A program made the translations under genes and the position numbers. Under the pieces are notes generated by a model. It was not told the DNA's origin. It worked only from the letters and a program-made list of their open reading frames with translations, and made no database searches. A stretch of DNA of 64,000 bases from Mesorhizobium sp. M3A.F.Ca.ET.080.04.2.1 (GTDB lineage: Bacteria > Pseudomonadota > Alphaproteobacteria > Rhizobiales > Rhizobiaceae), in NCBI RefSeq assembly GCF_003952525.1, contig NZ_CP034451.1, forward strand, positions 4,564,501 through 4,628,500, written 5' to 3'. Position 1 is the stretch's first letter. Each line of letters starts with the position of its first letter. Below, one piece after another: positions 1 to 17,524 of the stretch.

Positions 1-879
1 CCCGATATCGTCATTGTCGAAGCGTTTCCATTTGGACGCCGGCAGATGCATTTCGAACTCTTGCCGCTGATCGAGGCCATCGACGCGACGTTGCCCAAGC
101 CGCTGCTGGCGACGTCCGTCCGTGATATCCTTCAGGACCGCGTCAAGCCGGGCCGAAACGAGGAAACGGTCGATCTCATCAACAGGCATTTCGACCTTGT
201 CATGGTCCACGGCGATCCGGCTTTCGCAACCATCGACAGGACGTTTCCACTGGCTGGGGCGATCAGGGCCGAGGTTGCCTACACAGGGCTCGTTGCTGCG
301 CCGCCACCGTCCGCGGCCTCCGAGCGCTTCGACGTCCTGGTGTCGGTTGGCGGCGGGGCTGCGGGGAAAAGCCTTGTCACGTCCACCATCGCGGCGGCGC
401 ACAATGCCAACAATGCCTGGAAATGGTGTTTGATCACCGGCCCAAACCTGCCGAAAGACGAGTTTGACGTGATCGCGCGCAATGCCACGCCGGGTCTGTC
501 CATCTTCCGCTTCCGCGCCGATTTCGCCAGCCTGCTGACCGGCGCCCGCCTGTCAGTCTCGCAGGCGGGCTACAACACCGTTTGCGATATCCTGCGCGCC
601 GGTTGTCGCTCCCTGCTCGTTCCGTTTGCAGCCGGCGCCGAAACCGAACAGACGGTTCGCGCGCTGATGCTTGAAGAACTCGGTCTTGCAACCGTGCTGA
701 TGGAAAAGGATCTGACGCCTGAAGGTTTGGCCCAAACGATCGCACAGGCGCTTCTGGGACCTGCGCCAGCCGCGCATCGCCTCGACCTGGAAGGCGGGCC
801 TCGTTCGGCGCAAATCCTGCGCGAGCAATATCGAAGATGGTCCCGGAAGGAGGGGCTTGGTTTCGGAAAAGTTCAGTGA
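1..879 (+). CDS. Predicted glycosyltransferase (COG4671-like), 5' end outside window
   Basis: The reading frame is open from base 1, so the gene begins upstream of the window; the first in-window Met (base 46) is internal. The visible 292 residues form the C-terminal part of a GT-B glycosyltransferase resembling the GT28/MurG-like family and COG4671 'predicted glycosyl transferase'. A glycine-rich turn (SVGGGAAGK) opens the nucleotide-sugar-binding half, and the donor-site signature SQAGYNT is followed by a hydrophobic strand ending in VPF, as in MurG-type enzymes. It probably transfers a sugar from a nucleotide donor to an envelope or exopolysaccharide acceptor. The substrate cannot be read from the sequence. 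A deacetylase, a GT4 enzyme and a sugar dehydrogenase within 10 kb support a polysaccharide role. Confidence 0.8.
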   Translation, partial: PDIVIVEAFPFGRRQMHFELLPLIEAIDATLPKPLLATSVRDILQDRVKPGRNEETVDLINRHFDLVMVHGDPAFATIDRTFPLAGAIRAEVAYTGLVAAPPPSAASERFDVLVSVGGGAAGKSLVTSTIAAAHNANNAWKWCLITGPNLPKDEFDVIARNATPGLSIFRFRADFASLLTGARLSVSQAGYNTVCDILRAGCRSLLVPFAAGAETEQTVRALMLEELGLATVLMEKDLTPEGLAQTIAQALLGPAPAAHRLDLEGGPRSAQILREQYRRWSRKEGLGFGKVQ

Positions 880-950: not shown

Positions 951-1005
951 CGCATGTCGTTGTCTCAGGACCGCGCACACTTCTGAGCGACATGCATTAA
1001 TGCAT
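951..1005. repeat. Rhizobial-type intergenic palindrome, copy 1
   Basis: The 8-base arms GCATGTCG (952-959) and CGACATGC (988-995) bound a 28-base centre containing CCGCGCACACTTCTGAG. It overlaps a perfect 14-base palindrome, ATGCATTAATGCAT (992-1005), which runs into the stop codon of the methyltransferase on the minus strand. A second copy with the same arms and a similar centre lies at 21884-21930. The element sits between two converging genes, so the hairpin may help end transcription from either side. Its assignment to a dispersed rhizobial repeat family is from memory and unchecked. Confidence 0.65.
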
Positions 1006-1679
1006 CAAACGGCTCCAATCAGCATGAAGCGCGTATAATTCTTTGTCGGCAGTTCGCCGGAAAACCGCACCTCCCGTAGCGCCGCCATTGCTTCGAAGGC
1101 TGCAAGCGAAGCGACGCAGTTGATGTGCGTCGGCTCGCTGAAATAGTCGTTCGATTGCAGCAGCACATTCGTGCCCTGCGGAAGCAGGGCAAGCCAGGCA
1201 CGCAGATCGGCTATGTGTTCGCAGCTGGTATTGACTGCCAGGTCGGGCCGTCCGGTCGCATAATCGAGCGCGTACATGTCGGCCGTCAGCGCCTGGAACC
1301 GGTCGCCGGCTTCCCGGTTGAGGGTCCGGGCGACCGGAGCGACTTCGGGATCGATGTCGATGCTATCGATCGCCGCGATGTCGAAGCGGGTGTCGTTGAA
1401 AAGCATTGCCGGCAATACGCCGTACCATCCACCCAGAACCCATATGCGCCCGAACCGGCCGCCGCAACTGTCGAACAGCCCGTCGAGCGCCCACATCTTG
1501 CAGGCGACCTGCTTGTGGTTGAAGGCGTTGGCGATGTCGGCCTGCGGGTGCTTGGCGATGACGCGCGCCAGTCCTGCCACGAGAGGGCAGCTGACATAGG
1601 CAGCAATTCCACGCGTGAGGTCCAAGGCTTGCTCGTGCCAGTCCATGCCGGCATTGCGTGGTTGCGCGACATCCATCAT
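1005..1679 (-). CDS. Class I SAM-dependent methyltransferase-like protein
   Basis: A protein of 224 residues if it starts at the paired ATGs at 1679/1676. The frame stays open up to 2081, but the upstream 134 residues are rich in Arg and Ala and look non-coding, so the shorter form is preferred; neither ATG has a strong ribosome-binding site. A Rossmann motif-I-like turn (WVLGGWYGVLP) is followed by an acidic strand end (SIDIDPEVAPVA), as in SAM-binding folds. A later NTSCEHI segment sits where motif IV is expected. The gene is transcribed towards the partial glycosyltransferase. The acceptor substrate is unknown; a role in modifying a surface glycan or small metabolite is only inferred from the neighbours. 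Confidence 0.6.
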   Translation of the reverse strand: MMDVAQPRNAGMDWHEQALDLTRGIAAYVSCPLVAGLARVIAKHPQADIANAFNHKQVACKMWALDGLFDSCGGRFGRIWVLGGWYGVLPAMLFNDTRFDIAAIDSIDIDPEVAPVARTLNREAGDRFQALTADMYALDYATGRPDLAVNTSCEHIADLRAWLALLPQGTNVLLQSNDYFSEPTHINCVASLAAFEAMAALREVRFSGELPTKNYTRFMLIGAV

Positions 1680-2050: not shown

Positions 2051-4786
2051 ATGAAGGATCCACGGTCGCATATGGAACCAAGCCTAGCCCGCTATATCTG
2101 GACGCACACCAAAAAGCAGCAGGTCTGGATATTGATGATCGTCCTGCTTTCGATGATCCCGTATTTCATATCCTTCGACCTGCCGAAGCTGATCGTCAAC
2201 GGCCCAATTCAGGGCAAGGGCTTCGAGCAGCCGGGCGCGACCCAGGCATTCATGAGGCTACACTATGACCTGCCGTTGGTTGGAGAGGTCCAGTTCTTCT
2301 CCGGTTTTCAGCTCGACCGCACGCAGACGCTGTTTGCCCTGAGCGTTGTGTTCCTCTTGCTGGTCGTCATCAACGGCCTGTTCAAACTCTACATCAACAC
2401 CTACAAGGGCCGGCTCGGCGAACGCATGCTCCGGCGCATCCGCTTCGATCTGGTCGATCGTGTGCTGCGGTTTCCGCCGATTTACTTCAAACGGGTGAAA
2501 TCCGCCGAAGTGGCGACCATGGTGAAGGACGAGGTGGAGCCGCTGGGCGGCTTCATCGGCGATGCCTTCCTGCAGCCGGTGCTGCTCGGCGGCCAGGCGC
2601 TGACGGCCATGCTGTTCATCATGGTCCAGAACGTCTGGCTCGGGATGATAGCGGGCGTGATCGTTGTGATTCAGATCGTGCTCATCCCGCGAATGCGGCG
2701 GCGGCTGATCGTGCTGGGGCGCGAACGGCAGCTGACGGCGCGCGCGCTCTCGGGCCGGGTTGGGGAAATCGTCGACGGCATCGGCGCGGTTCACGTCCAC
2801 GATACTTCAAATTACGAACGCGCCGACATTGCTGCCCGGCTCGGGCTCATCTTCAAGATCCGCTTCGATCTTTACCAGTGGAAATTCATGGTAAAGTTCC
2901 TCAACAATTTTCTCGCGCAGGTCACGCCCTTTTTATTCTACATGATCGGCGGCTACCTGGTCATCCAGGGGCGGCTGGACGTCGGCCAGCTCGTGGCCGT
3001 GATCAGCGCCTACAAGGACCTGCCCGGACCGATGAAGGAACTGATCGACTGGGATCAGGCCCGGCAGGACGTCCAAGTCAAATATCAGCAGGTCGTTGAA
3101 CAATTCACCGTCGAGGATCTCATCGCGCCGACAATTGGGGCATTGACGATCGACGCTCCCGCTCCGATGACCAACCCCCTGTCGGCGATCAATCTGTCCA
3201 TCGCAGACGATGGCGGTGCAATGCTCCTCGACCGTATCTCCCTCCAGGTCAAGCCGGGTGAGACGGTGGCGCTGGTCAGTACCGGAACGGGTGGAGCGGA
3301 GGCGCTTGCAGAAGCCTTCGCGCGGCTGAGCTGGCCGGACAGCGGAAAGGTCGCTTCGGGCGCCGACGACCTGCTTGAACTCCCCGAAGCGGTGACCGGC
3401 CGGCGCATGTCCTATGCCTCATCCGACGTTTTCCTGTTCCATGCAAGCCTGCGCGATAATCTGCTCTACGGGTTGAAGCATGCGCCGCTCAAACCGGTGT
3501 CGTATGACGGTTCTGCGGCAGACCAGCACCGCTGGAACATGCACGAGGCGCGCCGGTCGGGTAATCCGGATATCGACATCAACAGCGACTGGATCGACTA
3601 TGCTGCCGCCGGCGCCACCGGCCAGCAGGACCTCTTTGAAGCGGTGCGCCGGGTGCTCGACGCGGTTGTTCTGTCGCGCGACATTCTGGATCTTGGCTTG
3701 CGCTCATCGGCTGACCTCACGCGTCACACGGAACTCGCCAGCCGGATCGTCGAACTGCGTACGGCACTGCGAACCCGGCTGGAACAGGAAGGGCTGAGCG
3801 GACTGGTGGTTCCTTTCGAACCGGGTGCCTACAACAAGGAAGCAAGCATCGGCCAAAACCTGCTCTTCGGTGCTGCCGCCGGCCCGGAACTGGCCGACAA
3901 GGCTCTAGCGGGCAATTCCTATTTCGCTTCTGTGCTGAGGGAAGCCGGCCTCGATCGCATCCTCTACGAAATGGGCATGGAGATCGCAGAACAGGCGATC
4001 GAGTTGTTCGCCGACTTGCCGCCCGATCATCACTTCTTCCAGCAGCTCGCCTTCATGAGCGCCGAGGAGATACCCGCCTACGAAAGCTTGCTGCAACGGC
4101 TCAAGAACCGCCCCTACGAGGCGGTCTCGGAGAGCGACCGTGCCATGATCGTCACCTTGAGCTTTGCCTATATCGAGCCCCGGCATCGATTCGGCCTGCT
4201 GAGCGACGAGCTGATGAGCAAGATCGTCGCTGCACGCAACCGGTTCTATGAGAACCTGCCGCCCGAGCTGCAAAATGCGATCGAACGGTACGATCCCGAC
4301 AAATACATTGCCGCGGCCACCGTCATGGATAACGTCCTGTTCGGGCGCGTGGGCAACAACCATCCCGACGCGCCGGACCGCATACGCTCCATCGTCTATG
4401 ACATTCTTGACGAACTGGGGCTTTATTCCGAACTTCTGGATGTCGGCCTGGACTTCAACGTCGGCGCCGGCGGCAGGCGGCTGACCGCTGGACAGCGACA
4501 GAAGCTCGATGTTGCCCGGGCCCTGCTCAAGCGTCCTGATTTTCTCATTCTCAACCGGCCGCTGTCGGCGCTCGACCAGCGTGTGCAGGACAAGGTGCTG
4601 CGGAACGTGCTCGAGGAAGCCAGGTGCGACGGCCATTCGCCGGCAATCGTGTGGGTCGTGACGAATCCGGCAATGGGGATGATGTTCGATCGCGTTATCG
4701 TCTTCGACTCGGGCCAATTGGTGGAAGACGGAACGCACGAGACACTTTTGGCAGGGAAGAGTATCTTCAAGGAACTGCTGTCGTAG
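2051..4786 (+). CDS. ABC-exporter-like membrane protein with degenerate, expanded nucleotide-binding domain
   Basis: 911 residues from 2051 (or 904 from the in-frame ATG at 2072). Residues about 15-360 form a type-I ABC exporter transmembrane domain. The following NBD-like region is strongly altered. The Walker A position (about residue 409) reads STGTGGAEA and lacks the P-loop Lys and Ser/Thr. The Q-loop Gln is replaced in YASSDVFLF. The signature is LTAGQRQ (about 811). Walker B reads FLILNRPLSALD, with Asn and Arg where Asp and Glu are expected. The H-loop His is Asn (VVTNPAM). Some 340 residues separate the Q-loop-like and signature segments, against roughly 80 in ordinary NBDs. That insert holds three related NLLYG/NLLFG/NVLFG stretches. 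ATP hydrolysis is therefore unlikely. The next two genes encode a cyclic-nucleotide-binding protein and an MBL hydrolase on the same strand. Confidence 0.85.
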   Translation: MKDPRSHMEPSLARYIWTHTKKQQVWILMIVLLSMIPYFISFDLPKLIVNGPIQGKGFEQPGATQAFMRLHYDLPLVGEVQFFSGFQLDRTQTLFALSVVFLLLVVINGLFKLYINTYKGRLGERMLRRIRFDLVDRVLRFPPIYFKRVKSAEVATMVKDEVEPLGGFIGDAFLQPVLLGGQALTAMLFIMVQNVWLGMIAGVIVVIQIVLIPRMRRRLIVLGRERQLTARALSGRVGEIVDGIGAVHVHDTSNYERADIAARLGLIFKIRFDLYQWKFMVKFLNNFLAQVTPFLFYMIGGYLVIQGRLDVGQLVAVISAYKDLPGPMKELIDWDQARQDVQVKYQQVVEQFTVEDLIAPTIGALTIDAPAPMTNPLSAINLSIADDGGAMLLDRISLQVKPGETVALVSTGTGGAEALAEAFARLSWPDSGKVASGADDLLELPEAVTGRRMSYASSDVFLFHASLRDNLLYGLKHAPLKPVSYDGSAADQHRWNMHEARRSGNPDIDINSDWIDYAAAGATGQQDLFEAVRRVLDAVVLSRDILDLGLRSSADLTRHTELASRIVELRTALRTRLEQEGLSGLVVPFEPGAYNKEASIGQNLLFGAAAGPELADKALAGNSYFASVLREAGLDRILYEMGMEIAEQAIELFADLPPDHHFFQQLAFMSAEEIPAYESLLQRLKNRPYEAVSESDRAMIVTLSFAYIEPRHRFGLLSDELMSKIVAARNRFYENLPPELQNAIERYDPDKYIAAATVMDNVLFGRVGNNHPDAPDRIRSIVYDILDELGLYSELLDVGLDFNVGAGGRRLTAGQRQKLDVARALLKRPDFLILNRPLSALDQRVQDKVLRNVLEEARCDGHSPAIVWVVTNPAMGMMFDRVIVFDSGQLVEDGTHETLLAGKSIFKELLS

Positions 4787-5083
4787 AAGCAACGGTCATT
4801 CGGATGCGAAAATTCTGCCGCTGGGAATTTGCTGCAAGATCAAGGAATTCGGCGAAAAGCGCAGCGGGACCACATCTGCGCCGAAAACCCGAAGGATTTT
4901 GCGCAAATCACCCGGCTCTCCGCGTTGCCGGCTGGCGGACGCCCATTTTGTCGGGCCGCTGGCTCGACTGCGGGCTCGCCATCTTTCGCATGGTTCGACC
5001 CGCCATTGCGGAAACAGAATTCACTCTGTCTGGGCGTCGGTTGCTCTCATCTGGCAAACGCGAATTTGAGAAGGGTTGCGACA

Positions 5084-5530
5084 ATGCTGCTCAAGGATGA
5101 AGTTGGAATGCTGCAGCGCGTTCCCTTGTTCTCCGGCATCGAAGCGACAAAGCTCAAGCTGCTTGCATTTACGTCCGATCGGGTGAGCTACAGCGCCGGC
5201 CAAATCCTTTTCCGGCAGGGCGACGAGGGAGACGCCGCCTATGTTATCCTTTCAGGCACGGCGGATATTCTGGTCGATTCCGATAGCGGACCAATAAAAG
5301 TTGCAGAACTGGCGCCGAATTCGATTGTTGGCGAGATCGCGATATTGTGCAACAGCTCCCGCACTGCGACCGTCAGGGCGGCAAGTCCGCTGGAAGCCTT
5401 GAAAATCAACAAGGATCATTTCCTGAGGCTTATGAAGGAGTTCCCGGAGATGACCATCGAGATATTGCGGGTTCTTGCCGATCGGCTAAGCCATACGACC
5501 GCGGATCTGATCGACGCACGAAACGCCTAG
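5084..5530 (+). CDS. Stand-alone cyclic-nucleotide-binding (CAP_ED) domain protein
   Basis: 148 residues; the ATG at 5084 is preceded by GAGAAGGG at good spacing. Almost the whole protein is one CRP-type beta-barrel domain. It has the expected FRQGDEGDAAYVILSG strand-turn segment and a phosphate-binding cassette GEIAIL...SRTATVRA, with the Glu that contacts the ribose and the Arg that contacts the cyclic phosphate. No HTH follows, so it is not a CRP-type transcription factor. It is more likely a soluble cNMP-sensing subunit or adaptor. It lies between the degenerate ABC protein and the MBL hydrolase, with nucleotide cyclases a few kb downstream. Confidence 0.85.
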   Translation: MLLKDEVGMLQRVPLFSGIEATKLKLLAFTSDRVSYSAGQILFRQGDEGDAAYVILSGTADILVDSDSGPIKVAELAPNSIVGEIAILCNSSRTATVRAASPLEALKINKDHFLRLMKEFPEMTIEILRVLADRLSHTTADLIDARNA

Positions 5531-5568
5531 CAGCAGTTTGTTTGGCTACGACGGGCCGAAGGAGCAGC

Positions 5569-6414
5569 ATGGATTTCCTGGTCAGGTTTTGGGGCGTGCG
5601 CGGCAGCATCTCGGTATCGGGACCAGAATTCGCTCGCTACGGCGGCAATACAATCTGCATTGAGATGCGATGCGGCAAGCATACGCTTCTGTTCGACGCG
5701 GGCTCTGGACTACGGCCTGCCGGGAGAGCGCTTCGGGCGTCAGGCGTGACCGATTTCGATCTGCTTTTCACCCATTGCCACTACGATCACATTATCGGGC
5801 TGCCGGCTTTTGCGCCGATCTATGACCGCAGCGTTAAGGTTGCGCTTTGGTCCGGGCATCTTGCAGGGCGCATGACGACCCGGCAGATGATCGATGAGTT
5901 CATGCGGCCGCCATGGTTCCCGGTGAAACTGGATATCTGCAAGGCAAGGCTCGACTGTCACGATTTTGCTTCCGGAGACGTGCTTCGGCCGCGCGAGGGG
6001 GTTGTGGTGCGAACCGCCAGCCTTCTTCATCCGGGCGGCTGCATAGGCTACCGGGTCGAATGGGGCGGACGCGTCGTGGCGGTGATCACGGATACTGAGC
6101 ACGAGCCGGGCAAACTCGACCAGGCGGTGCTCGGCTTGATCGAAGATGCCGACCTCGTCATTTACGATTGCACCTACACCGAGGAGGAAATGGAACATCG
6201 CCGCGGCAACGGGCACTCGACATGGCAACAGGGCGTCAAGCTCTGTGAGGCTGCCGGTGCGCGGGGGCTTGCGCTGTTTCACCACGATCCGGCACGCACC
6301 GATGAGGAACTGGACGCGATGGAGAAACTGGCCAAAGACAGGTTTGCCGGCGCCTTTGCCGCGCGGGACGGCCAGACGCTCACGTTTCCAGTTTCATTGC
6401 ACAAGAAGCGCTGA
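5569..6414 (+). CDS. MBL-fold metallo-hydrolase (RNase Z/PhnP-like superfamily)
   Basis: 281 residues; ATG at 5569 has AAGGAG five bases upstream and lies 38 bases after the preceding stop, consistent with co-transcription. The N-terminal strand VRFWGVRGSI and YGGNT are typical of this MBL subfamily. The metal motif is THCHYDH (HxHxDH), with later metal or phosphate ligands suggested by the TASLLHPGG, TDTEH and FHHDP segments. Relatives hydrolyse phosphodiesters, including cyclic nucleotides and RNA 3' ends. Beside a cNMP-binding protein and cyclases, a cyclic-nucleotide phosphodiesterase role is an attractive but unproven guess. Downstream genes run on the other strand. Confidence 0.85.
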   Translation: MDFLVRFWGVRGSISVSGPEFARYGGNTICIEMRCGKHTLLFDAGSGLRPAGRALRASGVTDFDLLFTHCHYDHIIGLPAFAPIYDRSVKVALWSGHLAGRMTTRQMIDEFMRPPWFPVKLDICKARLDCHDFASGDVLRPREGVVVRTASLLHPGGCIGYRVEWGGRVVAVITDTEHEPGKLDQAVLGLIEDADLVIYDCTYTEEEMEHRRGNGHSTWQQGVKLCEAAGARGLALFHHDPARTDEELDAMEKLAKDRFAGAFAARDGQTLTFPVSLHKKR

Positions 6415-6430
6415 GTTATTTTGCTCTATC

Positions 6431-6486
6431 TTGTTGTTTGACGCGGTTCCGGACAGAAAACCGCTCACATTTTTCCTGGATTTGCT
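6431..6486. repeat. Intergenic repeat of rhizobial type between convergent genes
   Basis: The segment contains ACGCGGTTCCGGACAG, AAAACCGCT and TTTTTCCTGGATTTGCT in the order I associate with a very common rhizobial intergenic repeat. It lies in the 3' region shared by the MBL gene (plus) and the polysaccharide deacetylase (minus), whose stop it overlaps. Complementary short blocks (GCGGTT / AACCGC) could form a small hairpin. Family membership is from memory. Confidence 0.5.
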
Positions 6487-7241
6487 GTACCGGCGCTGCG
6501 CCCGATCAATGCCCTGATCGGAAGCCAGGCGCAGGCTTCGGTCTGTGCGGCGACTGTGAACAGCCGTTCGAGGAAAAGCCAGGCCGATTCATCATGTACG
6601 AGATGGTGGGTGAGCAGGCCGACCGGTTCGCCACCGTCGAACGCATGCTGCAATTGCGCAACGATGGCCTGAACCAATAGGCCATGATCGCGACAGCCGC
6701 GCGTGCCATGCCAATCCATGATGTCGACATTGCTGTTGACGACCGCCACTGAAGCCGGCTTCGACGGACCAAAGGCGGATAACGCCGCAAATCCTATCGA
6801 TCCAAGCTCGGATACCAGGCCGGGGTCGATCCTGTTCCAGGGCGGCACCAGCATCGGAACGGCACGAGCGCCGTGCAGCCCGCTTACGCGCGACAGCCCG
6901 CGAGCCAGCTCATCGAGCACCGCCTCGCGCGGCCGATGCCGGCCGAGCTCCTGCTTTTTCTGGCCCTCGGGCGCATGATTCCGATGCGCCCAGCCGTGGA
7001 TGGCGACCGTGACATGCGGCGCCTCGTCGAGCCGGACGACAAGCTTCTCATCGGTCAGCGCCGGAATGACGGCCAGAGTGAGCGCAACCGCGAATTCACG
7101 GGTGAGGTCCAGCAGCCGATCAAGCGCAGGCGTCGGATCCACGGCGTCATCGTCGCGCAGCCAGAACTCCGCCTTACGGTCCGCCCGTTGCCAGCGCGCC
7201 AGTTCTTCCACCAAGGGCTGCCAGATCTGATCGGATGTCAT
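6465..7241 (-). CDS. Polysaccharide deacetylase (NodB-like fold)
   Basis: 258 residues. The WLRDDDAV segment carries the catalytic/metal Asp pair of carbohydrate esterase family 4-like deacetylases. AIHGWAHRNH supplies the HxxxxH metal ligands, and VPPWNRID matches the substrate-groove motif 3. No signal peptide is visible, so it probably acts in the cytoplasm on a lipid-linked or nucleotide-linked sugar, or is a divergent member. Its start overlaps the stop of the upstream GT4 gene by four bases (ATGA), indicating translational coupling and a shared substrate pathway. The C-terminus enters the intergenic repeat. Confidence 0.85.
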   Translation of the reverse strand: MTSDQIWQPLVEELARWQRADRKAEFWLRDDDAVDPTPALDRLLDLTREFAVALTLAVIPALTDEKLVVRLDEAPHVTVAIHGWAHRNHAPEGQKKQELGRHRPREAVLDELARGLSRVSGLHGARAVPMLVPPWNRIDPGLVSELGSIGFAALSAFGPSKPASVAVVNSNVDIMDWHGTRGCRDHGLLVQAIVAQLQHAFDGGEPVGLLTHHLVHDESAWLFLERLFTVAAQTEACAWLPIRALIGRSAGTANPGKM

Positions 7242-8326
7242 GCAACGGGGATCTTCGCAAGAAGTTCGGCCAGACGCGCCGCTGCAGTATCGAGGGATCG
7301 TTCTTCGAGGATGAAACGTCTGGCTTCGCCGGACATGAGCGCCCTTTCGTCGTCACGGACCAGAAGCCTTTCAATGGCAGAACTGAACGCCGCCACATCG
7401 CCCGGCGGGGTGAGAAGCCCGGTCTGGCCATCCCGCACCACCTCCGGAACGCCGGCGATGTCCTGAGCCACCACTGGAAGGCCGGCGGCCTGTGCTTCAA
7501 GATAGGCAAGGCCATAGGCCTCGCCACAACCCGGCCAGACGTAAATTCCTCCATTGTAGAGGACATCCGGCACGGCGGCCGGCTCGATCGCGCCAAGCCA
7601 TTCGACACGGTCGGCGGGCAAGCCGGCGAACTGCGCTTTGACCTCGTCTCGGGCAGGGCCGTCCCCGACGACCGACATGGTCCAGGGCAGGTGGCGGATC
7701 GGACCGAGCGCTTGCGCCAGCATGCGATAGCTTTCGACTTTGTCGCCCGGGCGCATCATGGCAATGGTGACCAGGCGTGTCGGACAAGTGCTTGCCGGTG
7801 TTTCCCGGAATAGCGATGTGTCGATGAAGGGCGAAAGCATGCCGAAAGCGGCGTCGGGAATCGCGTCGATCAGTCCCCGACGGTCCCTCTGCGTGAAGCA
7901 GATGTTCAGCGCTGCCCGTTCGACGGCTCCCACCACCAACGCTTGCGCCTCGGCCCACAAACCGGTGCTGCGCCGCCTCGAATAGGAGGCTTCCGCAGTC
8001 ACGTAGGGGAGGGCAAAGGCCGAAGCCAGCTCAGGGCCGATCAGGTCGGGCGCCTTGTAATAGGGATGATAGGAGAACCAGAGATCGGGCTTGCCGTCAC
8101 GATCCCAAAGCTCTGTCAGCCGCGCGACTTCCTCTCGGGCCTCGGCCTTGAGCGCATCGAAACTTTTCGAGTCCGGTTCGCGTAGATAAAAACGCAATTC
8201 GGATGCCAGTTCGACGCGATGTCCTTCATGCTCCAGCGCCTTGACCAGCATCCGTGCCATCTGGCGGTCGCCGGAGGCAACGGCATGATTGGGCGACTTT
8301 AGCGGCGCGTAGAAGGCAATTCGCAT
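7238..8326 (-). CDS. Glycosyltransferase family 4 (GT-B)
   Basis: 362 residues, full length for a GT4 enzyme. The N-terminus MRIAFYAPLKSP is the first Rossmann strand. The C-terminal half carries VVGDGPARDE, the nucleotide-binding GCGEAYGLAYLEAQAAG segment with the E-x7-E-type donor motif, and LPVVAQDIAGVPEVV. It should transfer a hexose from a nucleotide sugar onto an acceptor glycan in the cytoplasm. It is coupled by a four-base overlap to the polysaccharide deacetylase, so transfer followed by N-deacetylation of the same sugar is a reasonable reading. It is transcribed divergently from the DUF3095 gene. Confidence 0.9.
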   Translation of the reverse strand: MRIAFYAPLKSPNHAVASGDRQMARMLVKALEHEGHRVELASELRFYLREPDSKSFDALKAEAREEVARLTELWDRDGKPDLWFSYHPYYKAPDLIGPELASAFALPYVTAEASYSRRRSTGLWAEAQALVVGAVERAALNICFTQRDRRGLIDAIPDAAFGMLSPFIDTSLFRETPASTCPTRLVTIAMMRPGDKVESYRMLAQALGPIRHLPWTMSVVGDGPARDEVKAQFAGLPADRVEWLGAIEPAAVPDVLYNGGIYVWPGCGEAYGLAYLEAQAAGLPVVAQDIAGVPEVVRDGQTGLLTPPGDVAAFSSAIERLLVRDDERALMSGEARRFILEERSLDTAAARLAELLAKIPVA

Positions 8327-8413
8327 CGCTGGACCCTATCATTGGAAAGCCTGTGCAAGTCAATTTGGAAGCATGATCGACTTTCACCATCAAGCAGTGG
8401 AATGTGCTATCTG

Positions 8414-9580
8414 ATGCTCATGGGAACAGCTGCGGCGTCCGACCCGTTTGTCGCTTCTTTGCCGGTCTTCGCAAAATTCGAAAGCGTTGCCGATATCGAC
8501 AACTATCGGCCTCTCCCCGATGGTTGGGCGCTGGCCACCGCCGATATCGTCGGCTCGACCAAGGCGATCGAGGCCGGGCGTTATAAAACCGTCAACATGG
8601 CTGGCGCCAGCGTCATTTCGGCGTTGCTCAACGCGCTGGGTCGGCAAGATCTTCCCTTTGTCTTCGGCGGCGACGGCGCGCTCGTGGCGTTTCCCGGCTC
8701 GGCGCTGGAGATCACCAGCAAGGCGCTGGCGGCTGTCCAGAGATGGGCGGCGGACGAACTGGACCTGACCTTGCGTGCCGCAATCGTGCCGATAGCGGAT
8801 ATAAGAGCGCAAGGGCTCGACGTTCGCGTGGCGAGGTTCCAAGCCTCCGAAGCGGTTTTCTATGCCATGTTCGCCGGCGGTGGCGGCAGTTGGGCGGAGG
8901 CCCAGATGAAAGCGGGGCGCTACCGCATCGGTCCTGCGCCGGCCGACGCGCGGCCGGATCTGACCGGTCTCTCGTGCCGCTGGAGCCCGATCGACGCCCG
9001 GCATGGCGAAATCGTCTCGATCATAGCCGTACCGGGTGCCTCGCGCGATTTGCGCGGTTTTCAGGTCCTGACTTCCGACATCATCGGCCTTGCCGGCGGA
9101 CAGGAACGCGGTGGCCATCCGGTGCCGGCCGATGGGCCGGCCTACAGTTTTTCGCCCGCCGGCCTCGATCTGGAGGCGCGGGCCGTCGCGCCGGCGGGAC
9201 GGCGGTGGCTGTCGAAGCTGTGGATACTGTTCCTGCTGTCGCTTGCGGCTGTCACCGATCGGTATGGCTGGACGATCGGCCGTTTCGATCCAAGGATCTA
9301 CAAACGCGACGTGGCCAGCAATTCGGATTTCCGGAAGTTCGACGACGGCTTGAAGATGACCATCGACGTGGACGCGGATGTGTTGCAACGGATCGAGAAC
9401 CGGCTGAAACAGGCGGAAGAGGCGGGCATTTGCAGCTATGGCCTGCACCGCCAGCAATCGGCCTTGATGACCTGTCTCGTCGCCTCGCCGCTGCAGCGCG
9501 ACCACGTTCATTTCATCGATGGCGCCGCTGGCGGCTACGCGATGGCTGCCGCGAGCCTGAAGGCGAAGGTGTCGGTCTGA
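8414..9580 (+). CDS. DUF3095 protein, nucleotide-cyclase-like
   Basis: About 388 residues from the ATG at 8414 (alternatives at 8402 and 8420; none has a clear ribosome-binding site). The protein matches the DUF3095 family as I recall it: an N-terminal ATADIVGSTKAIEAGRYK motif and FVFGGDGALVAFPG. These mirror the two metal-binding Asp loops of class III nucleotide cyclases, though the rest diverges. A hydrophobic segment (LWILFLLSLAAV) occurs near residue 275. The enzymatic activity of the family is not established to my knowledge. It sits head to head with the GT4/deacetylase pair and 45 bases upstream of a sugar-nucleotide dehydrogenase, in a region full of cyclases. Confidence 0.8.
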   Translation: MLMGTAAASDPFVASLPVFAKFESVADIDNYRPLPDGWALATADIVGSTKAIEAGRYKTVNMAGASVISALLNALGRQDLPFVFGGDGALVAFPGSALEITSKALAAVQRWAADELDLTLRAAIVPIADIRAQGLDVRVARFQASEAVFYAMFAGGGGSWAEAQMKAGRYRIGPAPADARPDLTGLSCRWSPIDARHGEIVSIIAVPGASRDLRGFQVLTSDIIGLAGGQERGGHPVPADGPAYSFSPAGLDLEARAVAPAGRRWLSKLWILFLLSLAAVTDRYGWTIGRFDPRIYKRDVASNSDFRKFDDGLKMTIDVDADVLQRIENRLKQAEEAGICSYGLHRQQSALMTCLVASPLQRDHVHFIDGAAGGYAMAAASLKAKVSV

Positions 9581-9625
9581 CGGCTTGCGGAGGTGCATTT
9601 TCCGCAATATGCCTCGAGGTCTTGG

Positions 9626-10987
9626 GTGACGGAAGGCAGATTTTTGGACGCCTCACAATCGATATATGACCGTCTTCTGAAGCGGATTTCGACGCGCGCC
9701 GCGCAAGTCGGCGTGATCGGACTGGGCTATGTCGGGTTGCCGCTTGCGGTTGCGATCGCACGCGCCGGCTTCCCGGTTTACGGCTTCGACATCGAAGCCC
9801 AGAAGGTCGAGAGCCTGAACAACGGCCAATCCTACATTGAGGCTGTGACGTCGACAGCCCTTGCCGGCCAGGTGGCGAGCGGACGGTTCCGCGCCACTGC
9901 GGATTTTGCCGAACTGGCCGTCTGCGATGTCGTCATCATCTGCGTTCCGACACCGCTGACGAAAAACCGTGAACCGGACCTCTCCTTTGTCAGGAACACG
10001 GCAGGCACCATCGCGAAGCATCTGCTTCCCGGCCAACTGATCGTGCTGGAATCGACCACCTATCCCGGCACCACCGACGACGTGATCAAGCCCATACTGG
10101 AAGAAACCGGCTTGCAGTCGAAGAAAGATTTCTACCTCGGCTTCTCGCCCGAACGCGAGGATCCCGGCAACCGCAGCTTTGAAGTCGCGACGATCCCCAA
10201 GGTCGTGGCAGGCGACGGCATTGAAGCGGCAACGCTGGTGCAGGCTTTCTACCAGGGCGTGGTCGAGACCGTCGTTCCGGTTACCAGCACGGCGACAGCC
10301 GAAGCCGTCAAGCTGACGGAAAACATCTTCCGCTCGGTCAATATAGCCCTGGTCAACGAGTTGAAGGTCGTGCTCGGCGCGATGGGCATCGACATCTGGG
10401 AGGTTATCGAGGCGGCAAAGAGCAAGCCCTTCGGCTACATGCCTTTCTATCCCGGCCCCGGTCTTGGCGGGCACTGCGTTCCGATCGATCCCTTCTACCT
10501 GACGTGGAAGGCGCGCGAATACGAACTGCCGACCCGCTTCATCGAACTGGCGGCAGAGATCAACACGGCTATGCCGCGTCATGTGGTCGATGAACTGGCG
10601 AAAGCGCTGGATCGGCGTTGCGGCAAGGCACTCAGCCGCTCGCGAATTCTCATCATCGGGCTCGCCTACAAGAAGAACGTGCCCGACATCCGGGAAAGTC
10701 CTTCATTACGGCTCATTGAGCTCATCGAGGAATGGGGCGGCAGGGCAGAATTCCACGATCCGCATGTTGCCGAGATACCGACCACACGGGAGCATATGGC
10801 GCTCAAGGGGCGCCGCTCGATCGAATTGACCGAGGCCGCCTTGAAGGATTTCGATGCTGTCGTCGTGGCAACCGACCACGACGCGATCGACTATCAGGCG
10901 ATCGCTGATCACGCTCTTCTGGTCGTCGACACACGCAATGTTTTTGGTCGCCTCGGGCTGGCCCGAGACACGGTGGTGAAGGCCTGA
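9626..10987 (+). CDS. Nucleotide sugar dehydrogenase (UDP-GlcNAc/UDP-Glc 6-dehydrogenase family)
   Basis: Start taken as GTG at 9626, with GAGGT five bases upstream; an in-frame GTG at 9593 is an alternative. 453 residues. The Rossmann motif VGVIGLGYVGLPLA is followed by the catalytic Thr/Glu region and the catalytic Cys in GPGLGGHCVPIDPFY. The C-terminal domain begins near IIGLAYKKNVPDIRESP. This pattern is closest to the WbpA/TuaD-type enzymes that oxidise a UDP-sugar C6 alcohol to a uronic acid with two NAD+. It probably supplies an acidic sugar for the polysaccharide made by the neighbouring transferases. It runs in the same direction as the DUF3095 gene and the next cyclase. Confidence 0.9.
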   Translation: MTEGRFLDASQSIYDRLLKRISTRAAQVGVIGLGYVGLPLAVAIARAGFPVYGFDIEAQKVESLNNGQSYIEAVTSTALAGQVASGRFRATADFAELAVCDVVIICVPTPLTKNREPDLSFVRNTAGTIAKHLLPGQLIVLESTTYPGTTDDVIKPILEETGLQSKKDFYLGFSPEREDPGNRSFEVATIPKVVAGDGIEAATLVQAFYQGVVETVVPVTSTATAEAVKLTENIFRSVNIALVNELKVVLGAMGIDIWEVIEAAKSKPFGYMPFYPGPGLGGHCVPIDPFYLTWKAREYELPTRFIELAAEINTAMPRHVVDELAKALDRRCGKALSRSRILIIGLAYKKNVPDIRESPSLRLIELIEEWGGRAEFHDPHVAEIPTTREHMALKGRRSIELTEAALKDFDAVVVATDHDAIDYQAIADHALLVVDTRNVFGRLGLARDTVVKA

Positions 10988-11251
10988 GGCGTGTGAGCCG
11001 GCGAATCTTTCACCCGCTGTCAGGATCGTGGTTGCATTCCGCCGACGGGCTCAACACATAATGCCCCGGAAGGTAGAAGCAGTTGCGCCTGCTCCTTGCC
11101 TGCAAGGACAGCGTTCGAGAAATTCTTCGCCGGCTTTGCAGCTGAAGCCGGCTTCATTGACTTCGAGGGTCCTGTATCTAAGTCGTTGGCGAACTGTTTT
11201 ATGGACGGATCAAACGATAATGGCTCCGTCTTCGACGGGTTTCGAGATCGC

Positions 11252-12592
11252 ATGAGCACAGCGCAAGCAGAGATTTCCACCATTCTCATGGACAAGGTTG
11301 CCGATTGGCTGACCCAATCGGCGCTGGCGGGCAACGACCTGGAAACGTTGGTAAAGGGCTTTTGCGAACGGCTAGCTGCTGCCGGCCTGCCGCTGAAGCG
11401 GGTGCATCTGAGCTTTTCGATGCTTCATCCGCTTTATGACGCGCTTGGCTTCACCTGGCTTCGCGGCCATGGCATGGAAGTGGAAGGCTTCCGCAATAAG
11501 GGCGGCGTGCCGTCCGACAGGTTCCTGACCAGTCCATACTTCCATCTGCTCAGCAACAAGCTCGACCATCTGCGGCGCCGGTTGGACACGTCCGTGCCGT
11601 CGGAGTTTCCTGTTTTCGATGAACTCAGGCTTATGGGCATCACCGACTACATGGCTTTCGTCCATCCCTTCGGCGGCAGCACCAGTCAGGGCATGATGGG
11701 CTCCTGGTCCACCGACAGCGCCGCAGGCTTCAGCGACAGCATGATTTCGGCGCTGCTGCGCATCCAGAACCATCTCGCTATCGCAACCAAGATGGCGGTG
11801 CTCACCAAGCTCGCCGACAACATGATGACCACCTATCTCGGCGGCGACGCCGGCAGGCGCGTGCTTGACGGCCAGATCAAGCGCGGCGAGGGCGATACCA
11901 TCCGGGCCGCACTGGTCATGGCCGATATGCGCGGGTCGTCAAGGCTCGCCGAAACCTCCGGCCGCGAAATCTATATCGACACGCTGAACCAGTTTTTCGA
12001 CGCCGTAGCTGCACCGTTCAATCGCAATGGCGGGCAGATCATGAGTTTCATAGGTGATGGCTTTATTGCGGTCTATCCTTGCGAAAGGCACCGCTCGCAG
12101 TCCGAGATCGCCTGCCAAGCTGCTCTTGCAGCAGCGCACAAGGCCACGGCGCGCGTGATGGATCTCAATTTGCATAGAAAAGAAAAGGGACTGTCGGAGA
12201 TAAAGTTTGGCATCGGCCTGCATGTCGGCAATGTGATGTTCGGCAATGTCGGGCTTACCGACCGGCTGACATTCTCCGTCTTCGGCGCGGCTGTGAACGA
12301 GGTCCAGCGCCTCCAGATCTTCACTAAGAAATATCCTCACAGCGTCCTGGCCAGCGAACACTTCGCCAGCTATTGCGGCGCCAGCAAATGGCTGACGCTC
12401 GGCAAGGAAGAACTGCCCGGCATCAAGCAGAAGCTGACGGTGCTTTCACCCGATCTCTCGGGTGCTCTCGCAGTCGATGAAGACGCTGCGCTGGAGCCGA
12501 TTTACGGCCGGAGATCGGACGCCGAGCAGGTCATGCTGCTTCATCGCGATACCGCGCGGCTGTCGGCAGGTGACCCCAGAAAGCTCCAGTAA
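11252..12592 (+). CDS. Class III adenylate/guanylate cyclase with N-terminal regulatory domain
   Basis: 446 residues from ATG 11252; in-frame starts at 11201 and 11096 are possible. The N-terminal half (about 1-200) lacks transmembrane segments and resembles the cytosolic sensor region often placed before bacterial cyclases. The catalytic domain has the first metal Asp in MADMRGSS (about D225), the second in FIGDGF (about D269), and the transition-state Asn/Arg pair in GAAVNEVQRLQ. The catalytic set looks complete. It lies 264 bases after the sugar dehydrogenase and 140 bases before the peptide importer, on the same strand. Confidence 0.85.
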   Translation: MSTAQAEISTILMDKVADWLTQSALAGNDLETLVKGFCERLAAAGLPLKRVHLSFSMLHPLYDALGFTWLRGHGMEVEGFRNKGGVPSDRFLTSPYFHLLSNKLDHLRRRLDTSVPSEFPVFDELRLMGITDYMAFVHPFGGSTSQGMMGSWSTDSAAGFSDSMISALLRIQNHLAIATKMAVLTKLADNMMTTYLGGDAGRRVLDGQIKRGEGDTIRAALVMADMRGSSRLAETSGREIYIDTLNQFFDAVAAPFNRNGGQIMSFIGDGFIAVYPCERHRSQSEIACQAALAAAHKATARVMDLNLHRKEKGLSEIKFGIGLHVGNVMFGNVGLTDRLTFSVFGAAVNEVQRLQIFTKKYPHSVLASEHFASYCGASKWLTLGKEELPGIKQKLTVLSPDLSGALAVDEDAALEPIYGRRSDAEQVMLLHRDTARLSAGDPRKLQ

Positions 12593-12732: not shown

Positions 12733-14628
12733 ATGAATTCGGGTGTTGATCTGCTGCGGATCGAGGATGTTGGCATCTCCTTTGCCATCATCGGGGGACC
12801 GTTGCATGCCGTCAGGCGCGCAAACCTTCGCGTCCTGCCCGGCAAGGTTACCGCGCTTGTGGGCGAGTCCGGCTCCGGAAAATCGGTTCTCAGCCAGGCA
12901 GTGATGGGCATTTTGCCGGCATCAGCCCATGTTCGCGGCCGTATCCTGTTTTCCGATCCTGAACGGCCCGGCACGACGCAGGATATACTGAAGATGCCGC
13001 GCGATGGACCCGAGATACGGGCGTTTAGAGGCAGCCGCATCGGCAAGATCTTTCAGGAGCCGATGACATCGCTGTCGCCGCTGCACACGATCGGCAACCA
13101 GGTCAGCGAGTCCTTGCAGATTCATACACCCATGTCTCGGGCGGAGCGCAAGGCACGGACCGAGGAAATGCTCGGCCTTGTCGGCTTTCCCAATCCCAAG
13201 CGCGCCTATGACATGTATCCCTTTGAGCTTTCGGGAGGATTGCGTCAGCGCGCAATGATCGCGATGGCGCTTATCTGCCGGCCCGCCCTGTTGATCGCCG
13301 ACGAGCCGACGACGGCATTGGACGTCACCATCCAGGCGCAGATCCTGCAATTGCTGCGCGGGCTTCAGACCAAGCTCAATATGGCGATGCTGCTGATCAC
13401 CCACGACCTCGGCGTGGTCGCCAATGTCGCCGACGAGGTGGTGGTCATGTACCATGGCGAGATCATGGAAGCGGGACCTGTCGAGGCGATATTCCGCCGG
13501 CCAGGTCACCCTTACCTGAAGGGCCTGATGGCGGCCGTTCCGCATTTCGACCTGAAGCCGGGCGAACGGCTAAAGGCGCTCCGCGAGGTGCCGGTGAATG
13601 TCGGGAACCTGCTCGGCAAGCAAACGGCACCGGCATCGACGGGGCCGGACGACATCCTGCTGTCGGTCAGGGATCTGAAAAAGGTCTTCACCATCCGCAA
13701 GTCCGGATGGTTCGGCGGCGATCATCAAACCTCCGTGCGTGCCGTGGACGGCGTGAGCTTCGATATCAGGCGGGGTGAGTGCCTGGGCCTGGTCGGCGAA
13801 AGCGGTTCCGGCAAGACCACTGTCAGCAAAATCCTCATGCGGGCTGTCACCCCAAGCGGCGGCTCTGTGACCTTCAACGGTCGCGACGGACCGATCGACG
13901 TCTTGGCAGGCGAGGGAGACACCCTGCGCATGCTGCGCGCCAAAATCCAGATGGTCTTCCAAGATCCGGTTTCGTCGCTTTCGCCTCGCATGACGGTGGA
14001 GAACATCTTGAGCGAGCCGCTGGAAATCCATCAACGTGGCGATGCCGCGTCCCGGCTGGCCACGGTCAAAAGCCTGATGCAGGCAATCGGACTCGATCCG
14101 CGCTTTATCAAGCGCTATCCGCACAGTTTCTCCGGCGGGCAGCGTCAGCGTATCGGCATCGCACGCGCCTTGGCGCTGGGACCCGAACTGCTGATCTGCG
14201 ACGAGCCGGTTTCGGCGCTCGATGTCTCTGTCCAGGCGCAGATCCTGAACCTTCTGAAAGACCTGCAGAAGGAATTGGGCCTGACCTACCTGTTCATATC
14301 CCACAATCTCGCGGTGGTGGACTACATGGCTGACCGCATCGCGGTCATGTGCGGCGGGCGTATCGTCGAGCTTGCCCCGCGCGAAATTCTGCTCAGGAAA
14401 CCGATCCACCCCTACACGCGCTCACTGGTCGCCGCAGTACCCTTCCCGGATCTCGACCGGCCGATGGATTTCAAGACGCTGAAGCTCAGCGGCGCTTCCG
14501 ACACCAGCGCATGGGGACCGCAATTCCGGGACGAGGGCGACGCGGATACGCTGTCACCCCTCGATCTTGGCGGCGGCCACCTCGTGCTGGCTCGACGTTC
14601 GGCCAATGTCAGCGAGCTACGCCATTGA
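12733..14628 (+). CDS. yejF: Peptide ABC transporter ATP-binding protein with two fused NBDs
   Basis: 631 residues with two complete ABC ATPase domains in one chain, as in YejF/GsiA. NBD1 has [16 protein letters not shown] and [12 protein letters not shown]2 has [17 protein letters not shown] and CDEPVSALD. Each is followed by the oligopeptide C-terminal extension (HPYLKGL and HPYTRSL). It energises uptake of peptides or peptide-like compounds. Its stop codon overlaps the TTG start of the binding-protein gene. The set 12733-18702 is a complete importer operon in the order ATPase, binding protein, permease, permease. The symbol reflects architecture; the substrate is not known. Confidence 0.85.
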
Positions 14629-16523: not shown

Positions 16524-16525
16524 GC

Positions 16526-17524
16526 GTGCTGCGATATATTGTCTGGCGCATCGCCGTGATGGTTCCAACGCTGCTGATCATATCGGCACTGGTGTTCACG
16601 ATCATCGAACTTCCCCCAGGCGACTATTTCGACAGCTATGTTGCCGAGCTTCGGGCTCAGGGCGAAGCGGTCGACTCCGATCGCATCGAGATGATGCGCA
16701 AGGACTATGGTTTCGACAAGCCGCCGGTCATCCGCTACTTCTACTGGGTCGGCGGGATGCTGCACGGCGATTTCGGCTATTCCTTCGAATATGAGCTGCC
16801 GGTTCGCGACGTCGTCGGGGACCGAATGTGGCTGACCGTGCTGGTTTCCTTCGTCACGATCGTCTTCACCTGGCTCATCGCCTTTCCAATCGGCATGTAC
16901 TCGGCCACGCATCAATACAGCTGGGGCGATTACGGCCTGACCTTCTTGGGTCTTCTTGGCCTTGCCATCCCGAATTTCATGCTGGCGCTGATCCTGATGT
17001 ATTTCGCCAACATCTGGTTCGGCACGTCCATCGGCCATCTCATGGACCAGCAATATCTCGGCGAGCCGATGAGCTGGGCCAAGGTGAAATCGATCCTCGC
17101 CCATCTCTGGATCCCGGTCCTGATCATCGGCACCGGGGGCACGGCAAGCATGATCCGGCGGCTGCGCGCCAATCTGCTCGATGAGCTTCACAAGCAATAT
17201 GTCGTGACCGCGCGCGCAAAAGGCCTTCATCCCTTCAAGGCGCTGGTCAAATATCCGCTGCGCATGGCGCTCAATTTCTTTATTTCAGACATCGGCTCCA
17301 TCCTGCCGGCCATCATCTCCGGTGCCGAAATCACGGCGATCGTGCTGTCTTTGGAAACGACCGGTCCGATGCTGATCAAGGCGCTGCAAAGCCAGGACAT
17401 GTATCTGGCAGGGTCGTTTCTGATGTTCCTGGCCTTTCTGACGGTCATCGGCGTCCTGATATCCGACCTGGCGCTGGCGCTGCTTGATCCGCGAATTCGT
17501 TTGCAGGGCGGCAGCACCAAATGA
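16526..17524 (+). CDS. yejB: Peptide ABC transporter permease (YejB-like)
   Basis: 332 residues from GTG 16526, two bases after the binding-protein stop. The N-terminal membrane segment YIVWRIAVMVPTLLIISALV is the standard DppB-type start. Later helices surround the cytoplasmic EAA-like loop LHKQYVVTARAKGLHPFKALVKYPLR, where the Gly contacts the ATPase. About six transmembrane segments are visible. It overlaps the next permease gene by four bases (ATGA), so the two are coupled in translation. Confidence 0.9.
   Translation: MLRYIVWRIAVMVPTLLIISALVFTIIELPPGDYFDSYVAELRAQGEAVDSDRIEMMRKDYGFDKPPVIRYFYWVGGMLHGDFGYSFEYELPVRDVVGDRMWLTVLVSFVTIVFTWLIAFPIGMYSATHQYSWGDYGLTFLGLLGLAIPNFMLALILMYFANIWFGTSIGHLMDQQYLGEPMSWAKVKSILAHLWIPVLIIGTGGTASMIRRLRANLLDELHKQYVVTARAKGLHPFKALVKYPLRMALNFFISDIGSILPAIISGAEITAIVLSLETTGPMLIKALQSQDMYLAGSFLMFLAFLTVIGVLISDLALALLDPRIRLQGGSTK

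Follow-up and report, generated by a model that had tools for sequence, protein, structure and literature searches.

A degenerate ABC exporter and its cyclic-nucleotide-binding partner in glycan gene clusters of Mesorhizobium and other Alphaproteobacteria

The window analyzed here is a 64-kb piece (positions 4,564,501 to 4,628,500 of contig NZ_CP034451.1) of the 6.17-Mb single-contig genome of Mesorhizobium sp. M3A.F.Ca.ET.080.04.2.1. Near its left end, a first-pass annotation made from the DNA letters proposed a cyclic-nucleotide signaling module of five genes, all on the forward strand, and open reading frames and Pfam confirm each family at its place: a membrane protein with the membrane domain and a degenerate nucleotide-binding domain (NBD) of an ATP-binding cassette (ABC) exporter, hereafter pseudo-ABC (2051..4786; ABC_membrane plus an ABC_tran remnant); a stand-alone 148-residue cyclic-nucleotide-binding (CNB) protein (5084..5530; cNMP_binding PF00027, E 1.1e-22); a metallo-β-lactamase (MBL)-fold metallo-hydrolase (5569..6414; Lactamase_B_2 PF12706, E 9.9e-19); a DUF3095 protein (8414..9580; PF11294, 432 bits); and a class III nucleotide cyclase (11252..12592) with a Guanylate_cyc domain (PF00211, E 4.2e-8) and an N-terminal half without assignment. 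The pseudo-ABC probably starts at 2072 instead of 2051, because almost all sequences conserve M8 and close relatives have 904 residues.

The families were followed in 61 genomes of the genus (G000-G060), 40 other genomes of the order and 385 genomes of the class. Gene neighborhoods were compared at 155 pseudo-ABC loci: 17 from other families of the order, 80 named loci (the best 80 of 571 confirmed loci, many closely related) and 58 from the class. The class set began as 60 stretches hand-chosen from the 132 pseudo-ABC-positive genomes, with long frames prioritized and two stretches taken from each of three genomes; two stretches that held a membrane-domain paralog alone were excluded. Motif counts (n = 156) add the window sequence to the 155 loci. 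Since the loci share descent, these counts are not independent events, and the phyletic counts concern related genomes throughout.

The pseudo-ABC joins an exporter-type membrane domain (about residues 8-340), with five to six hydrophobic peaks within residues 30-315 and none beyond, to a degenerate NBD (370-911). Both domains score above the curated cut-offs (ABC_membrane, 65 bits against 28; ABC_tran, 37.8 bits against 25), and matches to PDB exporters reach E values down to 4e-69, which points to an ABC-exporter fold by descent. In the window the motor is degenerate, as the first-pass annotation had proposed: Walker A, STGTGGAEAL, lacks the lysine, Walker B, FLILNRPLSALD, has Asn in place of Asp and Arg in place of Glu, and the H-loop, VVTNP, lacks the histidine. 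The loss extends to the family: a canonical Walker A is present in 1/156 sequences, the Walker B Asp and Glu in 3/156 and the H-loop His in 16/156, no sequence of the 156 combines the three, and none has an LSGGQ signature. None of the 156 thus shows the set of motifs that marks an active ABC exporter. A canonical Walker A is seen in seven of 240 database relatives, and a strict Walker B pattern in none of them. The membrane half is better conserved than the motor half, with a mean entropy of 1.31 versus 1.95 bits and 95% identity or more in 56 of 333 versus 25 of 542 columns.

The helical subdomain occurs three times in the NBD, its two additional copies falling in a stretch of roughly 300 residues; the three blocks are centered on residues 464, 597 and 755. 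The repeat motif, N-L-L-Y/F-G, is encoded on the forward strand at 3440..3472 (residue 464 on), 3839..3871 (597 on) and 4313..4345 (755 on), the third copy at the canonical pre-signature position. Compared profile against profile, the blocks match with E 8.8e-7 (1 versus 2), 8.6e-10 and 7.5e-12 (2 versus 3), values that come from single comparisons across 34-54 columns and are not database E-values. The third block and the remainder match the latter half of the NBD of canonical exporters (phmmer). A sequence search of the PDB with repeats 1 and 2 alone found nothing significant, so it is the comparison of repeat with repeat that identifies them as helical subdomains. The pseudo-ABC thus appears to be a descendant of an ABC exporter in which the ATPase was lost and the helical subdomain triplicated. 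It is present in 132/385 class genomes (about one third; a few are partial matches), and a sample of 398 genomes of the phylum gave 32 matches, 31 of them in the class and one, outside it, with the membrane part only; its reach beyond the class looks small. Partial relatives were also seen: L196:7618-8556 and L235:8135-9061 are paralogs that match the membrane domain only, and frames of 863-1016 residues in G383, G599, G606 and G717 match the repeat region only (model positions ~516-876). In Sinorhizobium meliloti, pSymB of strain 1021 (L144) differs from that of 2011 (L142) by two gaps and zero mismatches over 28 kb; the pseudo-ABC and the cyclase each match in two frames of the 1021 sequence and in a single frame of the 2011 sequence.

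The CNB gene is the constant neighbor of the pseudo-ABC: it adjoins it on the same strand, or is fused to it, in 154/155 loci (17/17 in the other families of the order, 80/80 named and 57/58 in the class). Single-frame ABC-CNB fusions occur at 14 loci; the share in the class set, 12/58, is an overestimate, as long frames were picked first there. In a quick tree, the 14 fusions form one group together with one unfused row, and because the labels change only twice in total, the fusions may have a single origin. Some fusions are longer still: among the 120 matches listed for one of them, 20 exceed 1150 residues and carry a precomputed GGDEF domain, which Pfam places at the C-terminus in both proteins tested. 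The GG[DE][EQ]F motif is missing from all 20, P0149 and P0226 included.

Of the phosphate-binding residues of the CNB domain, the Gly is present in 155/155 sequences, the Glu in 149/155 and the Arg in 155/155, and the sequence conforms to the G-E...R-[ST]-A motif of cyclic-nucleotide-binding domains. The residue after the Arg is Thr in 142/155; in PKA and PKG, Thr at this position is compatible with both cAMP and cGMP. In the PDB, the CNB profile finds PKG and PKA regulatory domains among its best matches, and SthK is matched as well. S. meliloti relatives are labeled 'Crp/Fnr regulator', and a CRP/FNR-type transcription factor was considered for the window copy and rejected: at 148 residues, cNMP_binding is its sole Pfam domain and it has no helix-turn-helix or other DNA-binding domain. 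We propose that the CNB protein serves as a dedicated cyclic-nucleotide reader of the pseudo-ABC.

The HxHxDH motif of the MBL protein and its further His/Asp positions, which we take to be metal ligands, are invariant in an 11-row alignment, as would be expected of an MBL-fold hydrolase. In the genus, a full-length pseudo-ABC, CNB (at least 88% identity), MBL (at least 86%) and a cyclase of the 11252 type (at least 87%) are found in the same 37 of 61 genomes; the other 24 have none of pseudo-ABC, MBL or 11252-type cyclase, and the CNB proteins of 30-32% identity in four of them were excluded as orthologs, like the other weak CNB matches (30-35% identity across four genus and four order genomes without pseudo-ABC). 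This pattern may reflect one block gained and lost together. In the order, the pseudo-ABC is present in 17/40 genomes, all 17 of which have the CNB, and the MBL, in some cases on another contig, in 12/17 pseudo-ABC-positive versus 1/23 negative genomes (Fisher p 1.2e-5). In the class, 132 genomes have the pseudo-ABC, 180 the MBL and 121 both (121/132 versus 59/253; odds ratio 36, p 8.6e-41, a statistic that ignores genome size). With the MBL thus found in 37/37 versus 0/24 genomes of the genus as well, the conserved linkage of the pseudo-ABC, CNB and MBL families, on which the first-pass annotation made its module depend, is borne out. Among the matches listed, the MBL and the pseudo-ABC lie within 30 kb of each other in 43/107 double-positive genomes, mostly 14-24 kb apart.

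What surrounds the MBL in genomes that lack the pseudo-ABC bears on its role. Sixteen such stretches were hand-picked among the 59 MBL-positive, pseudo-ABC-negative genomes, and in six of them a CNB or a cyclase lies within 10 kb of the MBL. In L251 (9591-11369), the MBL and a tandem-CNB gene are divergent and 82 bases apart; L252 also has a divergent tandem-CNB gene, which the MBL open frame overruns. The layout of the tandem-CNB protein is like that of PKA regulatory subunits. In L254, a cyclase lies 85 bases downstream of the MBL; L255 and L256 have GAF-GAF-PAS-cyclases, and L261 a short CNB-like frame. In the pseudo-ABC-free genome of L256 (9643-16901), the MBL is followed by its GAF-GAF-PAS-cyclase and by a transporter of the TLC/MFS type that carries HEAT repeats and, at its C-terminus, a CNB. 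These neighbors in 6/16 pseudo-ABC-negative genomes, where a rough guess would expect 1.6, support a cyclic-nucleotide role for the MBL family; its substrate is put forward as a proposal. The protein is also weakly similar to Apyc1, which degrades cyclic nucleoside monophosphates (cNMPs) (E 0.0023).

The cyclase at 11252 scores 33.4 bits against the PF00211 cut-off of 21.9. Set by eye against solved cyclases, it keeps the metal Asp and the N..R pair, taking these roles to apply to its positions. With it, the window has six class III cyclase domains in a span of 27 kb (11252-38392: 11252, 19406, 24066, 26028, 33343 and 37163), where 0.17 would be expected per 64 kb. DUF3095 had been read as cyclase-like, a relation that could not be established: hhalign against a cyclase profile of only six rows gave E 0.054 and a probability of 1%, and a sequence search of the PDB returned no match.

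Among the named loci, all five families occur together in 25/80 and pseudo-ABC, CNB, MBL and cyclase in 32/80, mostly in Mesorhizobium, to which the closest named relatives sharing the block also belong. In several loci the genes form co-directional runs: MBL-CYC-DUF3095-CYC-ABC-CNB in L119, L127 and L132 (in L127, the open frames, stop to stop, are spaced 21, 57, 3, 151 and 24 bases), MBL-CYC-CYC-ABC-CNB in L116, ABC-CNB-CYC-MBL in L128 and L131, ABC-CNB-MBL-CYC in L134 and DUF3095-ABC-CNB-MBL-CYC-CYC in L136 (CYC, cyclase). Because equal content recurs in differing gene orders, these runs argue for selected linkage of the module genes. On Rhizobium etli p42e, a look-up that covered the MBL, deacetylase, GT4, two cyclases, DUF3095 and sugar dehydrogenase found them within ~13 kb.

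Genes for glycan synthesis lie among the module genes of the window. On the reverse strand, they comprise a polysaccharide-deacetylase-like protein (6465..7241), which has no Pfam or NCBIfam match at E 0.001 and takes its label from annotated relatives, and the glycosyltransferase GT4a (7238..8326; PF13692, E 1.3e-27); on the forward strand, a nucleotide-sugar dehydrogenase of the UDP-glucose/GDP-mannose type (UDPG_MGDP_dh; ~9593..10987, start approximate; TIGR03026, 436 bits against a cut-off of 189.8). Upstream of the pseudo-ABC are the C-terminal part of GT28a, a MurG-like GT28-type glycosyltransferase (46..879, forward; Glyco_tran_28_C, E 7.5e-16) of 396 residues at full length, whose start lies ~310 bases upstream of the window (complete ORF, L052:14190-15380), and, on the reverse strand, a class I SAM-dependent methyltransferase (1005..1661) named from an annotated relative, without a Pfam match and present in 32/80 named loci. 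Downstream of the cyclase is a Yej/Opp-type importer operon (12733..18702, forward) of a two-domain ATPase, a binding protein and two permeases, also named from an annotated relative; the importer is often beside glycan genes in relatives. In Mesorhizobium sp. WSM1497, the block sits on a plasmid.

In the class, the common arrangement, drawn from 12 fetched loci, is MBL, Methyltransf_24, Yej/Opp-type importer, deacetylase-like, GT28a, GT4a, GT4b, GT28b, ABC, CNB, not all genes being called in each. In most cases the MBL is at the cluster's far end, beside Methyltransf_24 in 5/5 loci tested and near an OmpR-type regulator in 2/2 tested; a cyclase follows Methyltransf_24 in 4/12.

In S. meliloti, all 16 cluster genes queried have a match on pSymB, with 42-83% identity over the main stretch, and MBL-DAC-GT4 lies ~20 kb from ABC-CNB. 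By ortholog content this is the cluster smb21252-smb21271, nine genes of which are reported to be needed for an uncharacterized surface polysaccharide and for phazolicin fitness (PMC10128002); the product was named PPP, for phazolicin-protecting polysaccharide (Travin et al. 2023, PMC10128002). Locus tags were assigned by counting back along 21 consecutive tags of RCAM1750 with 21252, 21265 and 21272 as anchors: CNB is 21270, ABC 21269, GT28b 21265, cyclase 21259, DUF3095 21257, MBL 21256 and GT4 21252. Of the anchors, SM_b21272 is described as a LacI-type regulator (PMC11387232) and the other two, 21265 and 21252, as glycosyltransferases (PMC10128002); beyond 21252, the count slips by two at the sulfotransferase named SMb21249 (PMC5498481). 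The phazolicin study notes that cAMP is reported to regulate genes potentially involved and that cyaA insertions were depleted in its Tn-seq (PMC10128002), and 7/9 PPP genes are upregulated under Myxococcus predation (PMC10315480). The tags of the cluster were not found in the available portions of PMC7268258, PMC5929573 and PMC5539429. The first-pass annotation knew of no described system of such composition, which calls for a correction: the orthologous region has been published as a set of polysaccharide genes; the dead ABC, CNB and MBL do not figure in the available text of that paper (PMC10128002), and no description of the dead ABC protein was found in the open-access literature searched.

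How these parts may work together can be outlined. The most economical mechanism is one in which the pair gates glycan assembly or export: the ABC-CNB core would be a cyclic-nucleotide-gated pseudo-ABC switch, with a cyclase as writer and the MBL as eraser, a reading to which we give an even chance. The class III cyclase would make a cyclic mononucleotide; the CNB protein, through physical contact also where the two are unfused, would bind it and then press on or release the pseudo-NBDs; the membrane domain would switch state without ATP hydrolysis, and its state would gate the assembly or export of a glycan made by the neighboring GT28, GT4 and deacetylase enzymes (in S. meliloti, the PPP polysaccharide); the MBL would reset the system by hydrolyzing the nucleotide. 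The strongest facts, namely the kept phosphate-binding residues of the CNB, the lost motor and the fusions, make the pair look like an ABC exporter in which a cyclic nucleotide has taken the place of ATP as control ligand. In outline, the writer-reader-eraser-output circuit first proposed is thus plausible, and the association of its genes is well supported, with all five families joined in some co-directional runs; the less constant linkage of the MBL and the cyclases, the subthreshold phosphodiesterase score of the MBL and the lack of support for DUF3095 as a cyclase relative tell against the full circuit.

These and several other observations pull the other way. One locus, L231, has a full-length pseudo-ABC and no CNB gene in its 19-kb stretch, the sole exception to the pairing. 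The Walker A column holds Lys in 32/156 sequences (within a canonical motif in one), and in two sequences two of the three motor motifs survive, so some lineages may possibly retain residual nucleotide binding by the pseudo-ABC itself. The 11252 cyclase lacks the residues that, on the same by-eye assignment, we take to be the usual base-recognition Lys and Asp, both of which are replaced. Cyclases were found in 72/72 genomes searched, so some proximity to the pseudo-ABC is expected anyway; one lies near it in 7/17 loci of the order (0.8 expected), 9/58 of the class (2.8 expected, both computed with rounded genome sizes) and 35/80 named loci, and the 11252-type cyclase is on another contig or distant in most of the order genomes that carry it. 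Cyclases near the pseudo-ABC are thus enriched, yet inconstant. The glycan context also varies: L243 has no glycan genes between ABC and MBL, and several ABC-CNB pairs, mainly fused ones, have none in the fetched stretch (e.g., L178, L181-L183, L189-L191), so the pair is a more conserved unit than its glycan context. In S. meliloti, the Clr targets named in the available text sit in the neighboring nodP2-smb21248 cluster, outside 21252-21271 (PMC5498481). For the MBL, 11 class genomes have the pseudo-ABC without it and 59 have it without the pseudo-ABC; it is inside the fetched stretch in 8/17, 41/80 and 1/58 loci (order, named, class); it scores 43.5 bits (E 2.4e-11) against the cut-off of 400 for the cNMP phosphodiesterase model NF041851; the closest solved relatives of its profile are RNase Z; no fusion with a CNB or cyclase is found in the precomputed domains among the 120 matches listed; and no CNB or cyclase is seen in 10/16 MBL-only stretches or in any of the four examined around a distant MBL of pseudo-ABC-positive genomes (L266-L269).

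The proposed eraser role has a competitor, which we place only a little short of an even chance: the MBL may act on a glycan, a lipid-linked intermediate or RNA, its link being with the glycan cluster and not with cyclic nucleotides. RNase Z as closest profile, scores below every phosphodiesterase cut-off, a position mostly at the far side of the cluster and the ten MBL-only copies without a CNB or cyclase beside them all fit this view. The protein also falls short of the ribonuclease Z equivalogs, its best match to them reaching 74.7 bits where the cut-offs are 252 bits and above. The six pseudo-ABC-negative genomes with a CNB or cyclase close by speak for an eraser, as do the 16 MBL-only stretches, which show no glycan cluster and have a single GT4-like frame among them (in L261), and as do the similarities to Apyc1 and NF041851, weak as they are.

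A scaffold without signaling output appears rather unlikely. Here, the pseudo-ABC would be a platform for glycosyltransferases or a passive flippase, stabilized by the CNB, and the cyclases and the MBL would be separate tenants of the region, which agrees with the glycan genes that flank ABC-CNB in most loci, with cyclases in every genome searched and with the 11/132 genomes that lack the MBL. A structural partner would not be expected to keep the phosphate-binding Arg and Gly of the CNB in all 155 sequences, and separate tenants would leave unexplained why the MBL accompanies the pseudo-ABC in the other 121 genomes and why the module genes form runs of varied order.

An anti-phage function of the Pycsar type, with a pyrimidine cyclase and a CNB-bearing membrane effector, we regard as very improbable. 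A membrane protein with a CNB resembles PycTM in outline, a class III cyclase and a CNB effector are common to both, and the best PADLOC models are PycC for the cyclase (8.8e-19) and PycTIR for the CNB (6.1e-17). These matches have the strength of generic domains, however: no TIR or PycTM was found in the unit, and the pseudo-ABC gave one weak match, to mad3 (2.7e-7). Pycsar was rejected, since a PycC would have to stand beside PycTIR or PycTM and the neighbors here are ABC and MBL; in many families of the class the unit is part of a glycan cluster and not of a sporadic island, and an eraser within a defense system would be odd. The NCBIfam GPMC system was likewise rejected: it gave only weak GT4 matches (7.1e-11, 5.6e-10) and none for MBL or CNB. 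The genome is rich in cyclases, with 16 matches to class III cyclases (15 of them above cut-off), and has 13 CNB domains, yet a chance assembly is scarcely credible given the joint presence or absence of ABC, CNB, MBL and cyclase in the 61 genus genomes and the crowding of cyclases in the window, and for the ABC-CNB pair it is refuted by linkage across 155 loci.

The pseudo-ABC can be compared with several known systems. With MsbA-, PglK- and ABCB-type exporters, it shares the membrane domain and the overall NBD layout; it differs in its degenerate Walker A, Walker B, H-loop and signature, in the two extra copies of the helical subdomain and in the near-obligate CNB partner. CFTR and SUR, ABC proteins turned into a channel and a regulator, are precedents for a non-pumping ABC fold and still bind ATP, whereas here nucleotide binding seems to have shifted to a separate CNB protein. 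SthK is likewise a membrane protein under CNB control, as is proposed here, but it is an ion channel with the CNB in its own chain and no ABC fold. In the L256 locus, as in the window, an MBL and a cyclase have a membrane protein with a CNB for a neighbor, though its membrane domain is of the TLC/MFS type instead of the ABC type and the CNB is in the same chain; one such locus was seen.

A more detailed version of the gated switch, which we consider speculative and unlikely to hold in full, would have an ABC exporter rebuilt to act on a lipid-linked glycan, as a conduit or flippase that is gated by a cyclic nucleotide and independent of ATP. The triplicated subdomain would serve as a docking surface on which the CNB, fused in one clade and in some members joined by a degenerate GGDEF domain, replaces ATP as gating ligand, with the cyclase writing and the MBL erasing.

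If the gated switch is real, it would give bacterial cAMP or cGMP a non-transcriptional output, add a bacterial case of a regulatory ABC fold and offer a way into the question of why rhizobia retain so many cyclases. Control of the surface polysaccharide that shields S. meliloti from an antimicrobial peptide would become directly testable.

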